Positions 23,185 through 26,842 of a DNA stretch of 37,925 nucleotides are shown here, piece by piece. The DNA lies in contig JAHFFW010000025.1 of assembly GCA_023247725.1 (NCBI GenBank), positions 1-37,925 on the forward strand, read 5' to 3'. The notes below the pieces were generated by a model that was not told the DNA's origin, ran no database searches, and worked only from the letters and a program-made list of their open reading frames with translations. The translations under genes and the position numbers were made by a program. This DNA comes from Candidatus Omnitrophota bacterium. GTDB taxonomy: Bacteria > Omnitrophota > Gorgyraeia > Zapsychrales > JAHFFX01. Numbering within the stretch: position 1 is the stretch's first letter; the number at the start of each line of letters is the position of its first letter.

Positions 23185-24081
23185 CTAAGGCGTCGAAGCA
23201 GTTCCGGGGACCAAAAGATCGCAAATCTCCAAGTACTTGCGGCTGGTCACCTCAATCACATCGGCGGGAAGTTTGGGAGCAGGATAGGTTTTATTCCAAT
23301 CGAGGGTTTCCAGATAATCCCGGACGTACTGCTTGTCAAAACTGGGTTGACTTTTTTCCGGGGAATATTCTTTGAGCGGCCAAAAGCGTGACGAATCCGG
23401 AGTGAGAACCTCGTCGATCAGAATAATCTCTTCGCCCAAAAAACCAAATTCAAATTTGGTATCGGCGATGATGATGCCTTTTTTTTCTGCGTAGGCGTTG
23501 GCTTTTTGATAAAGTGCGATGCTGGCGTTTTTCAGGGCCTGGAACGTCTTTGAACCGACCTCTTTTTCCATGGATTCGGGAGAAATATTCTCATCATGCC
23601 CGGTATCGGCTTTGGTCGACGGCGTAAAGAGCGGTTCGGGAAGTTTGTCAGATTCTCTGAGTCCTTTGGGCAAAGGAATTCCGCAAACGCTCTGACTGAG
23701 TTTGTATTCTCTCCATCCGGATCCCGATAAATATCCGCGGACGACGCATTCGAAAGGAATGAGTTTCGCCTTTCGGGTCAACATGGAACGGCCTGCCAAT
23801 AAGGAACGATAAGCCTGTAGTTCGCGGGGAAAGCGATCAAGATCCGCGGTGACAAAATGATTGGCGATCACATCCTGCGTGTATTGAAACCAAAACCTTG
23901 AAAGCTTCGTGAGGACCTCACCTTTGTGCGGGATGCAATCCGGCAAGACGACATCAAAACAAGAGATCCGATCGGTCGAGATCAAAAGGAGTTCAGTCCC
24001 CAAGTCATAGACATCCCGGACTTTTCCTCGTCGGAATAAACGCTGACCTTTCAACTCGACCTTTTCGACCGTCTTCGTCAT
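23185..24081 (-). CDS. purC: SAICAR synthetase PurC
   Basis: Purine biosynthesis: joins CAIR and aspartate with ATP to give SAICAR. The 298-residue product has the signature segments RRGKVRDVYDLG (17-28), ISTDRISCFDVV, PFECVVRGYLSGSGW and ADTKFEFG. The ATG at 24081 has AAGGA 6 nt upstream and fits family length; an in-frame ATG at 24108 with its own AAGGA is also plausible. It belongs to the longer, yeast-like PurC group rather than the short E. coli type. purE, its pathway neighbour, lies about 13 kb away in this window. Confidence 0.94.
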   Translation of the reverse strand: MTKTVEKVELKGQRLFRRGKVRDVYDLGTELLLISTDRISCFDVVLPDCIPHKGEVLTKLSRFWFQYTQDVIANHFVTADLDRFPRELQAYRSLLAGRSMLTRKAKLIPFECVVRGYLSGSGWREYKLSQSVCGIPLPKGLRESDKLPEPLFTPSTKADTGHDENISPESMEKEVGSKTFQALKNASIALYQKANAYAEKKGIIIADTKFEFGFLGEEIILIDEVLTPDSSRFWPLKEYSPEKSQPSFDKQYVRDYLETLDWNKTYPAPKLPADVIEVTSRKYLEICDLLVPGTASTP

Positions 24082-24137
24082 GTCGCTTCCTTCATTTTGA
24101 ACGAGCATGTTCTCAATCCTTCAATGGCAGCAGCAAC

Positions 24138-26027
24138 TTAAAAGGTCATGGGGATTAATTTTTTATAATCCTCCAACGTTCCTTTGTAAAGGCAACATTC
24201 AATAATATTTTTTCCAGGGTCATCCAGCTCTGCGGTCAAATATTTGCTCAATTCCTCCCGGAAAAAATGATAAAGGATCGCGGCGCCTTCATCATAGCCT
24301 TGTTCTCCCACCTCGGACTGCCTTTGGACTTGAATCAACCAATCCGGAATCCGGTTGCCTTCGAAGAGAATGCCTTTGGGGACATAGCCCAAAAGCGGAC
24401 AGCGGGCTTCGGCGAGCTGTTCGGGTTTGAATTTAGCAATTCCTCGACGGGCAATGTATTCACGGGAAATCCATTGCGGCATGAACCCAACCTTCCAGGC
24501 GCCGACGTGCTGGTTTGGCAAAAGGAGATAACGGGTTTTAGGGGTGGCAACGATCTGGCGCAAAAGCAGGTTCGCATGATTCACGTAACGTCCGGTCGCA
24601 AATGGCCAGAAAGAACCAACGCCTTCGCTCGTAAGCCCGCCAGAGGCTGTAATACTGGGATTATCATCGCCTCGAGGAGAAACCAGGCGCCACAACCAGG
24701 CCAGGGCGGGAGGTATGATATGCAAAATTCCGAAAATACCGTACGTGGGATGATCGAACGTGCATCGCGGGGCCCGCACGCCAAAACTGCGGTAATCCAC
24801 CTCCGTCCGGCCTTCCCAGATATTGGGAACTAATCGACGGGGTAAGATGACCCGCGGATTAGGGCAAGGTTTTCCAGGGTCATCCAAGGTATGTTCCCAG
24901 ATCAGGCACGTGGCATGCGGAATTCCGTCGATATTTAAAAAAATAATCGGCTCCGGGTTGTGGATGCAAATCCCTTCGAGTTGCGGGTCCGTGTTGTAAT
25001 GCGTGATGTGATTTAAACGGATAAACCAGGCCGTCTCGGCATCGGCCACGACCAGGTGCCCTTCCTCAGAAGTAAAACGCGGATGAGAAATGGCCATATC
25101 ATCGGTGACCGGCCGCAGGGAACACCCTTGCGTGAGGGTCACATAAATCTTTTCTCCGGTTTGCGAATTTTCTCCCAGCAGAAGCCGGCCGTCGGTTTCG
25201 CGATGAGGATATTCGAGCATTTCACTTTTTCCTCCTCCCGAGGCGCCCTCATGGAGAATGGTCACGACATTTTCGTACGGGGTGATCACTTGCACCGTCG
25301 AGGCATGGAGAGTAGTCCAGCCTTCCTTCTCGCCGATTTGCAAAAGAATTCCATAAACCCCTTTCTTGGCGCTCGGTCCCGGATAAAGATTATACGAATA
25401 GATCTCGTGCAGATCGTCGAGCCGATTATGCACGACCACCTGCCTTCCCTTAAAATGGATGTGGCGAAAAGGGGGAGCCAGATAAATGATGGCCTGTGGA
25501 TCAAAATGCGGCGGCAGGGTATCGACGCTGAGCATCCCCTGCAGGTCAGCCAAGGCCCCGGCAAAGAAACCGGCATTCGCCGGCGCGATCAGCAAACCCG
25601 TATAACTTAACTCACTTCCGCCGACGGTGAATGGCAACAAAAGGAGTTCCTGCGCTTTGAGCCAAGCGAGAGTTTGAGCCCTGACGGTATCAAAGGGAAC
25701 CGAAAAAATGTCTTTGAATTTGGGTTTATCTGTTTCCTCTTGGTCGCCAATGACCAGGCTGTCGGGATCCCGGCGGCGCATATATTTTTCCGTGTAGTTG
25801 ATGACCAGACCATTTTTGCATTTGGCGACGGTGGCCTCCTTGACCCATCCCTTCCCGGAAATTTCATAACCCACCTCATAAAGGTCCTTATCCCCACCGC
25901 AGGCCAAAGAGAATATTTCTTGCCGGGTTTTGGGAATATGGACTCTGGGACAACCGTCGATCGTTTCTTTCACCTCCGAGGGAATGACCCAATTTTTCCA
26001 AATATTCATGGTCTGCGTGTTTTGCAT
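24138..26027 (-). CDS. DUF4914 protein, phosphoenolpyruvate carboxykinase-like
   Basis: A 629-residue soluble protein resembling the DUF4914 family, related in fold to PEP carboxykinase. A kinase-type glycine loop EGASGGGKSEM (about 260-270) corresponds to the PEPCK P-loop (usually G.SGTGKT). HASTVQVI and FLNIDG resemble neighbouring PEPCK elements. Substrate and reaction are unknown to me; ATP/GTP-dependent carboxykinase or kinase activity is inference. The open frame reaches a GTG at 26069, but that codon lies inside a leader hairpin. ATG 26027 with GGTGAG just upstream is preferred; ATG 26009 is another option. Strong own promoter; purC follows after 56 nt. Confidence 0.78.
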   Translation of the reverse strand: MQNTQTMNIWKNWVIPSEVKETIDGCPRVHIPKTRQEIFSLACGGDKDLYEVGYEISGKGWVKEATVAKCKNGLVINYTEKYMRRRDPDSLVIGDQEETDKPKFKDIFSVPFDTVRAQTLAWLKAQELLLLPFTVGGSELSYTGLLIAPANAGFFAGALADLQGMLSVDTLPPHFDPQAIIYLAPPFRHIHFKGRQVVVHNRLDDLHEIYSYNLYPGPSAKKGVYGILLQIGEKEGWTTLHASTVQVITPYENVVTILHEGASGGGKSEMLEYPHRETDGRLLLGENSQTGEKIYVTLTQGCSLRPVTDDMAISHPRFTSEEGHLVVADAETAWFIRLNHITHYNTDPQLEGICIHNPEPIIFLNIDGIPHATCLIWEHTLDDPGKPCPNPRVILPRRLVPNIWEGRTEVDYRSFGVRAPRCTFDHPTYGIFGILHIIPPALAWLWRLVSPRGDDNPSITASGGLTSEGVGSFWPFATGRYVNHANLLLRQIVATPKTRYLLLPNQHVGAWKVGFMPQWISREYIARRGIAKFKPEQLAEARCPLLGYVPKGILFEGNRIPDWLIQVQRQSEVGEQGYDEGAAILYHFFREELSKYLTAELDDPGKNIIECCLYKGTLEDYKKLIPMTF

Positions 26028-26040
26028 GGACTCACCATCA

Positions 26041-26097
26041 CAATAAAAGCCAACATACCTTTCCAGCACGACTCTGCGCCGGCGAAGAATGTTGGCT
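26041..26097 (-). promoter_or_regulatory. Structured leader with terminator-like hairpin ahead of the DUF4914 gene
   Basis: On the minus strand AGCCAACAT (26097-26089) pairs perfectly with ATGTTGGCT (26056-26048), followed by TTTATTG. Nested inside, CCGGCGC (26082-26076) pairs with GTGCTGG (26069-26063) around loop AGAGTC. Six-nucleotide segments TCTTCG and AAAGGT face each other between the stems. A two-stem element ending in a U-tract within about 75 nt of the start site looks like an attenuator or riboswitch expression platform. It matches no riboswitch class I know. Confidence 0.5.
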
Positions 26098-26123
26098 GCT
26101 CTTTCTTTTCCAAACCATCCATA

Positions 26124-26151
26124 AGTATAATCAGCGAAAAAATGAAGTCAA
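26124..26151 (-). promoter_or_regulatory. Strong sigma-70 promoter of the DUF4914 gene
   Basis: TTGACT (26146-26151), a 16-nt spacer and TATACT (26124-26129). The predicted start near 26117 lies upstream of the structured leader and just downstream of a strong terminator, so a new transcription unit begins here. Confidence 0.78.
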
Positions 26152-26165
26152 GAAATTAGTAGAAC

Positions 26166-26228
26166 AAAAAAGCCCCCCGGGGGCGGCGCGCCCTCTGAAA
26201 AATCCTTGGCGCGCCGCCCCCGGGGGGC
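26166..26228 (-). terminator. 21-bp GC hairpin terminator after the D/R/E-rich protein gene
   Basis: A perfect 21-bp stem (26172-26192 with 26208-26228), loop of 15 nt, is followed on the minus strand by TTTTTTG. It is unusually long and GC-only for an intrinsic terminator. It lies 29 nt past the stop at 26258. Confidence 0.9.
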
Positions 26229-26257: not shown

Positions 26258-26842
26258 TTATCGCCCTCTTCTTGGACCGGCTTGGCGAGGACGGTTCATC
26301 CCACCTTGGCCTTTCCCGCGGCCCGTTCCCTGTCCATGATCTCGGACGCCTGGATGTTCCTGATCACCCAGGTCCTCTCGCTTTTCCCGCACATCTTCCC
26401 GAGTGTCCGAACGATCTTGCAACTGCTCATTATGATCTTCGCGCCCTTGCTTCCATTGATCCATCGGGACATCCGGATGATTTTTATGGAATCGCCAGGC
26501 TCGGTGGAGTTCTTCCCTGCTCATATCGGGATGGTTTTTTTTAAACTCAGCGAGGTCAGGATGATTCTTGAGAAATTCATCCCAGTTTTCTTTTTGATCA
26601 ACCCAGTCCTCCCGGCGATCAGCCCAGTCTTCGCGTTGATCTCTGCGATCCTCCCTTTTGTCCAGAACATCTTCCATCCGATCCTTCGGTCCCCCGTTGT
26701 GCTGAGCATCCCCGACGTCTTCTCGATGATCGCGGACATCTTCTCGGGAATCTTTTTTATTTGACATCCCGGAAGGATCAGCCGCGCACGCCAAGGGGGC
26801 CAAGAGTAAACTGATGATACAGGCCAAGATTTTTTCGTTCAT
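26258..26842 (-). CDS. Secreted protein with DxREDxxD-type charged repeats
   Basis: A 194-residue protein with a Sec signal peptide (KILACIISLLLAPLACA, cleavage near 20). The mature part is dominated by short repeats of the form REDVRDHREDVGD and REDRRDQREDWADRREDW (about 33-90, and again at 145-160). A less repetitive middle contains NHPDLAEFKKNHPDMSREEL and NHPDVPMDQW, and the tail is Gly/Arg-rich. It is probably a long charged helix or disordered chain in the periplasm. Function is unknown. The start has AAGGAG a few bases upstream. The opposite strand shows a long hydrophobic frame that is only the antisense image of these D/R/E codons. Confidence 0.75.
   Translation of the reverse strand: MNEKILACIISLLLAPLACAADPSGMSNKKDSREDVRDHREDVGDAQHNGGPKDRMEDVLDKREDRRDQREDWADRREDWVDQKENWDEFLKNHPDLAEFKKNHPDMSREELHRAWRFHKNHPDVPMDQWKQGREDHNEQLQDRSDTREDVREKREDLGDQEHPGVRDHGQGTGRGKGQGGMNRPRQAGPRRGR

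Follow-up and report, generated by a model that had tools for sequence, protein, structure and literature searches.

A terminator-like hairpin preceding a DUF4914 gene in Omnitrophota and an associated leader RNA motif upstream of PEP carboxykinase genes

The DUF4914 locus and its leader hairpin

We analyzed a 37,925-nt stretch of DNA from an Omnitrophota bacterium (the window), in which a gene encoding a DUF4914 protein is preceded by a terminator-like hairpin (Table 1). A purC-like gene starts 29 nt behind the DUF4914 gene, and the two probably constitute an operon. As the sequence-only reading had noted, the hairpin lies close behind a sequence resembling a strong promoter, from which transcription would start at about position 26117. 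The same reading had dismissed the upstream GTG as a start codon, and our analysis agrees. This codon (26069-26067) falls within the 3' arm of the inner stem of the hairpin and, when residues are numbered from it, the Pfam DUF4914 domain starts at residue 29, so that the ATG at 26027 or at 26009 is the likelier start.

The next gene upstream (26258-26842, minus strand) encodes a 194-amino acid protein without a Pfam match, which is hydrophilic, has many D, E and R residues and contains repeated REDVRD-like stretches. Between this gene and the DUF4914 promoter lies a very G+C-rich inverted repeat with a T-run (26172-26228, minus strand), a strong terminator-like site. A gene that by eye resembles the one encoding the 194-amino acid protein is found upstream of DUF4914 in one related locus (L168). 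The window also contains a fluoride riboswitch (RF01734; 301-368, minus strand), which at 45.9 bits scores above the gathering score.

The predicted fold of the leader region 26120-26030 (minus strand), which includes the terminator-like hairpin, consists of an outer stem of nine uninterrupted base pairs, with moderate G+C content, and an inner stem with a short loop. The outer stem is followed on its 3' side by a U-rich tail. Stems and tail had been described from the sequence beforehand, and the fold bears them out. A 6x6 internal loop had also been proposed between the stems. Both stems stand, but the loop is not open: in the minimum-energy fold three pairs between CUU (26087-26085) and AGG (26060-26058) interrupt it, so that a U-U mismatch and a 2x2 loop remain. 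The folding energy is -28.9 kcal/mol (z -2.26), which is equalled by six of 200 shuffles. A perfect stem of at least 9 bp followed by a T-rich tail is present in six of 5000 shuffles of the 133-nt leader. Across both strands of the whole window there are 11 such stems, compared with a mean of 0.9 and a maximum of four in 100 shuffles. The hairpin has the stable stem and subsequent U-rich tail expected of an intrinsic terminator. Consistent with the view that no known riboswitch class fits, searching the leader against Rfam returned no match, and no family reached its curated threshold.

Table 1. Features of the DUF4914 locus in the window
Feature	Position	Strand	Basis
Promoter-like TTGACT (26151-26146), 16-nt spacer, TATACT (26129-26124)	26124..26151	-	10/12 bases, consensus match only
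Presumed transcript start, place of hairpin I in relatives	26093..26117	-	Nascent fold -2.8 kcal/mol; no match with R1 or R2
5' arm of outer terminator stem, AGCCAACAU	26089..26097	-	Fold; shares register and letters with relatives
Inner stem CCGGCGC (26082-26076) with GUGCUGG (26069-26063), 6-nt loop, holds upstream GTG	26063..26082	-	Fold; interior sequence diverged in relatives
3' arm of outer terminator stem, AUGUUGGCU	26048..26056	-	Fold; comparison with relatives
U-rich tail UUUAUUG	26041..26047	-	Sequence
Possible ribosome-binding site GGTGAG before ATG 26027	26031..26036	-	Sequence; inferred
DUF4914 gene (predicted PEPCK fold)	24138..26027	-	Pfam PF16260, E 2.2e-299; Foldseek
purC-like SAICAR synthetase gene	23185..24108	-	Pfam PF01259

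A terminator stem and an upstream hairpin in related leaders

DUF4914 is found in eight of 54 related genomes, one match being a 40-residue fragment. The best 80 of 87 homologous loci were taken, and the leader scan covered 85 loci, three of which lack a gene start, leaving 82 with usable upstream DNA. CCAACA...TGTTGG with a T-rich tail precedes DUF4914 in four of the 82: the window, L011, L052 and L013, the last from an assembly labelled Actinomycetota (79%, 75% and 65% identity to the window, respectively). In the window, L011 and L052 the outer stem and tail are retained while the hairpin interiors have diverged. The pattern CCAACAN{20,50}TGTTGGNTTT matches 16 times in 14 of the 54 genomes, and the reversed pattern six times. 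Two of the matches are DUF4914 leaders (G000 and G001), the spacer of the G002 leader being too long for the pattern; among the other 14, L097 lies by eye in a coding region. Within the window's genome the pattern matches solely the DUF4914 leader site.

Wider searches identified DUF4914 in 18 of 384 Omnitrophota genomes and in five of 120 relatives of the genome carrying L013, and contributed five further leaders (L109, L111, L123, L124 and L126). These five and L013 share the same terminator type and carry a second hairpin upstream of it, hereafter hairpin I, with flanks like GGAAGACUAA ... AGUAAGCCAACA. Relatives have the outer stem GCCAACAU/AUGUUGGC before DUF4914 as well, and the window stem is in register with those of 17 full leaders (those carrying hairpin I, see below) as well as with L011 and L052. 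When membership is defined by this stem preceding DUF4914 or the PEP carboxykinase (PEPCK) gene, the window leader is included.

Several other DUF4914 leaders were set aside. The L110 leader (G358) has a different terminator stem (CCCAGCAU/AUGUUGGG) and a different upstream hairpin, neither hairpin I model (R1 and R2, below) scores on it, and it was not counted; this two-hairpin leader of another layout (L110 1322-1430) may be a divergent version of the leader described here. In L125 (G419) a terminator lies immediately behind the promoter but its stem differs. The L107 leader could not be judged, as only 136 nt of contig precede the aligned start. At L127 (G386:C60), a second contig of that genome, the first 37 DUF4914 codons, at 100% identity, and the 3' half of the terminator are preceded by unrelated DNA; either the assembly is broken here, or a partial copy of the gene has been rearranged.

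Hairpin I is about 55-64 nt long, unbranched in our model, and has conserved purine-rich internal loops within a covarying helix. RNAalifold applied to a MAFFT alignment of the six leaders predicts a single irregular helix, nested throughout, in which nine of 15 pairs show compensatory changes, and unaided it predicts the outermost UGG/CCA pairing. The sequence-only reading had proposed a covariation test on DUF4914 leaders; it proves positive in the fuller leaders of relatives. In a trimmed, plain MAFFT alignment of the six leaders (A4), nine cells have changes on both sides that keep the pair, compared with a shuffled mean of 2.6 (0 of 500 shuffles as high), for a structure derived with RNAalifold from nearly the same six sequences. 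With 13 leaders, in an alignment fitted to the model, there are 24 compensated cells compared with 7.9 in shuffles (0/500) and at most seven in slid controls. The number of further pair types is not clearly above shuffles (40/500 for six leaders, 64/500 for 13). The outermost helix, on which the exclusivity of hairpin I and terminator depends, is short and little varied: its GG/CC pairs are found in 13 and 12 of the 13 leaders and a third pair in seven, with a single compensatory change.

A model built from the six DUF4914 leaders alone (R1) gave nine matches in the 384 Omnitrophota genomes, two of them training sites. The seven new sites are all in genomes with no reported DUF4914 and all lie behind mpsC; six precede a GTP-type PEPCK gene (that of G219 is cut by the contig end) and one, in G212, a second mpsC. 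With the rebuilt model R2, searching 384 genomes of the class yielded 12 matches, four of them new and all in this type of layout. The same layout surrounds four of the six R2 matches in 40 genomes of the class of G386, and four of the five in 396 genomes of its phylum, the remainder lying inside ORFs; some genomes belong to more than one of these sets, and filters were stricter whenever more than 40 genomes were searched. In total we count 17 hairpin I sites: nine before PEPCK (G257, G337, G248, G219, G230, G165, G272, G562 and G187), seven before DUF4914 (G261, G233, G584, G390, G417, G386 and G415) and the one before mpsC (G212). In each of the 17 a stem with a T-rich tail follows hairpin I.

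Matches inside long ORFs that resemble pheS and hisZ by eye (G386:C222, L176, and G394:C141, L175) and the match at L075 (E 2.3) were not counted, and a weak antisense match at L163 was excluded from alignment A6. No hairpin I match was obtained at L014, L060 or L064, where mpsC is found near DUF4914.

Neither R1 nor R2 matches the window up to an E-value of 5; R1 likewise finds nothing in L011 or L052, nor R2 in L168 or L169. In the nascent window transcript a weak pairing is possible between UGGUU (26117-26113) and AGCCA (26097-26093), and this helix may be what remains of hairpin I. The residual 5' helix has -2.8 kcal/mol in the window, -2.4 in L011 and -4.8 in L052, and a short UGG/CCA-type helix is still possible in the window and L052. 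In the DUF4914 tree one clade of 15 rows (support 99/96) comprises full leaders, terminator-only leaders (the window, L011, L052 and, with its other stem, L125) and five rows with neither. The three-row clade of the window lies beside the L013/L126 group (80/67), and leader labels cluster only moderately on the tree (about 50 of 500 shuffles are as low). The simplest reading, though not a firm one, is that the window's family has lost hairpin I. The window leader belongs to an undescribed leader family, in a form reduced to the terminator, and its terminator-like hairpin is genuine. The proposal that the leader is an attenuator or small riboswitch survives in part: a terminator-like leader is kept before homologs, but a riboswitch role for the window hairpin itself is not supported. 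The candidate sensor in relatives is a separate upstream hairpin whose models miss the window.

Genes associated with the leader

DUF4914 and PEPCK take the same position, behind mpsC and the leader. The mpsC gene is directly upstream of 15 of the 17 sites (one copy is cut by a contig end), the exceptions being G386 and G415. Among 28 draft genomes MpsC is found in 13 and was not found in G000, G001, G002 and G419, nor in G386 and G415. The GTP-type PEPCK domain is found in 12 of the 28 and was not found in, among others, G000, G001, G002, G358, G386, G415, G417 and G419, all drafts; no PEPCK was scored in the G219 draft, yet its contig ends inside a PEPCK gene. Three genomes (G261, G233 and G390) have a GTP-type PEPCK as well as DUF4914 with the leader. 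Two GTP-type PEPCKs with 33% identity (L154 4711-6606 and L155 5434-7257) follow the same leader type; with these two rather unlike PEPCKs and DUF4914, the locus would hold any of three enzymes that share a fold.

The DUF4914 protein had been called carboxykinase-like, a description that holds given its predicted PEPCK fold and agrees with the finding that leaders of this type also precede genuine PEPCK genes. The predicted model (pLDDT 89.8) resembles the fold of GTP- and ATP-dependent PEP carboxykinases over its length (Foldseek E 2.5e-23; TM 0.66 by query and 0.76 by target), and the 50 matches listed are PEPCK entries, one a PCKA-QOX2 model. A profile comparison also gives a weak match, 1j3b (E 0.0074), with the KK, H and P-loop regions aligned. 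However, identity to the carboxykinases is about 12-18% with an rmsd of about 5-7 Å, Pfam gives solely DUF4914, and BLAST between the two found nothing significant (best E 0.2). Our literature searches found no paper on DUF4914.

The products of several neighboring genes, assigned mostly by eye, act on CO2 or bicarbonate or come after such a reaction. The purC gene lies nearby in the window, L154, L164, L166, L168 and L169, purE and a biotin carboxylase gene in L155, and purE in L162; carbonic anhydrase-like hexapeptide proteins are also found nearby, below curated cut-offs. Some of these neighbors hint at CO2. Others at L162 and L163 have no such link, comprising transporters and HAD-type or replication genes (mostly by eye). 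According to one report, pckA is down 5- to 100-fold in an S. aureus mpsABC mutant under bicarbonate shortage (PMC11394868). It could be proposed that hairpin I is the sensor of an inorganic-carbon (CO2 or bicarbonate) or carboxylation-state switch, through direct binding of a ligand or an RNA-binding MpsC, and that PEPCK and DUF4914, which would stand next to other genes whose products use CO2, are under its control. We consider this unlikely. The literature searched names no bicarbonate or CO2 riboswitch.

Possible modes of regulation

In nascent folds hairpin I pairs one to seven bases of the terminator 5' arm in all 17 full leaders. In full-length folds the terminator forms in all 17 and is 5.4 to 12.0 kcal/mol better than the fold without it. 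Hairpin I and the terminator constitute a mutually exclusive antiterminator/terminator layout, and full members of the family look like attenuators. Since fold energies alone favor the terminator, switching would need kinetics or a factor. As the RNA emerges, hairpin I would form ahead of the terminator and occupy the terminator 5' arm by pairing UGG with the CCA of GCCAACAU. Were it stabilized by a small ligand or a protein, the terminator would be blocked and the gene transcribed; otherwise the GCCAACAU/AUGUUGGC hairpin would form and transcription would stop in the U-rich tail. We think it probable that the window hairpin is the intrinsic-terminator half of an undescribed leader RNA family that controls PEPCK and DUF4914 by attenuation. 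A 2017 survey of candidate RNAs could hold an earlier description of the family, which has no Rfam match. Because the window lacks the hairpin I core and has only a weak short helix, its terminator is probably a fixed or otherwise controlled attenuator, which would set the flow of polymerase into DUF4914 and purC.

The full leaders are similar to riboswitches that terminate transcription in that a conserved helix with unpaired purines lies upstream of, and is exclusive with, a terminator; no Rfam family at threshold was found in the window leader, in seven loci of relatives, or in 16 loci that yielded only a tRNA. It is possible, though we would not favor it, that the irregular hairpin I serves as the receptor for a small molecule linked to the PEPCK reaction, to carboxylation or to purine synthesis, and that termination is prevented in this way. 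The purine-rich conserved internal loops in a covarying helix, the overlap with the terminator, and the fact that this leader precedes two enzymes unlike each other, PEPCK and DUF4914, at one and the same locus are consistent with such a metabolite riboswitch, whereas the small size and unbranched form of hairpin I argue against it and the ligand is hypothetical.

The BglG/SacY/LicT antiterminator (RAT) is a hairpin overlapping the terminator 5' arm, and BglG and LicT proteins bind their RNA hairpin, so preventing termination. The full leaders are alike in having one short irregular hairpin over the 5' arm of an intrinsic terminator, in all 17 cases, whereas the window has a weak helix only in its place. 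The context differs, being PEPCK or DUF4914 with mpsC in the neighborhoods seen, in which no BglG-type gene was noticed by eye. The conserved letters of hairpin I, GGAAGACU..AGUAAGCC, also seem unlike the RAT consensus. By analogy a protein, perhaps the upstream-encoded MpsC (PF10057), might bind hairpin I and prevent termination, an idea that we hold to be rather doubtful. It accords with the position of mpsC directly upstream of most sites and with the failure to find MpsC in the hairpin I-less genomes of the window, G001, G002 and G419. In addition, a study in S. aureus states that mpsC deletion has no growth effect, that mpsC is dispensable for bicarbonate uptake, and that it does not adjoin mpsAB outside staphylococci (PMC6689103), which leaves room for another function. 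However, the G386 and G415 drafts carry hairpin I with no MpsC found, and G224 and G284 have MpsC and DUF4914 with no model match. A known RNA-binding fold was not recognized in MpsC: its model (pLDDT 82, three sequences) has no fold match at E <= 0.001, and a search returned TRAPPC3 as its best row (9.4e-3), with ribosomal proteins among some weak rows.

The window hairpin might also be a mere terminator or 5' structural hairpin, a relic or insulator with no present regulatory role. The missing matches to hairpin I models, the failure to find MpsC in genomes of the window's family, and the weakness of the remaining 5' helix would all fit. Against this, outer stem and tail are retained in the window, L011 and L052 despite their diverged interiors, and the UGG/CCA-type helix persists as a possibility in two of these leaders; we regard the explanation as doubtful, to about the same degree as antitermination by a protein. 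Attenuation by a ribosome translating a leader peptide is very improbable. Ten of the 17 leaders do have some ORF of at least six codons behind a sequence resembling a ribosome-binding site, and the window has one starting near 26118. However, these ORFs vary in place and sequence, seven leaders have none, no ORF is shared, and the recurrent start 'MLAF' is the terminator 3' arm read as codons.

The attenuation reading that we prefer directs interest more to the leader family than to the copy in the window. It proposes that PEP carboxykinase, one of the points at which carbon metabolism is controlled, has a leader RNA family supported by covariation, and it raises the possibility that MpsC plays a part. 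DUF4914 is tied to PEPCK by locus, leader and predicted fold, and its function thereby becomes testable.
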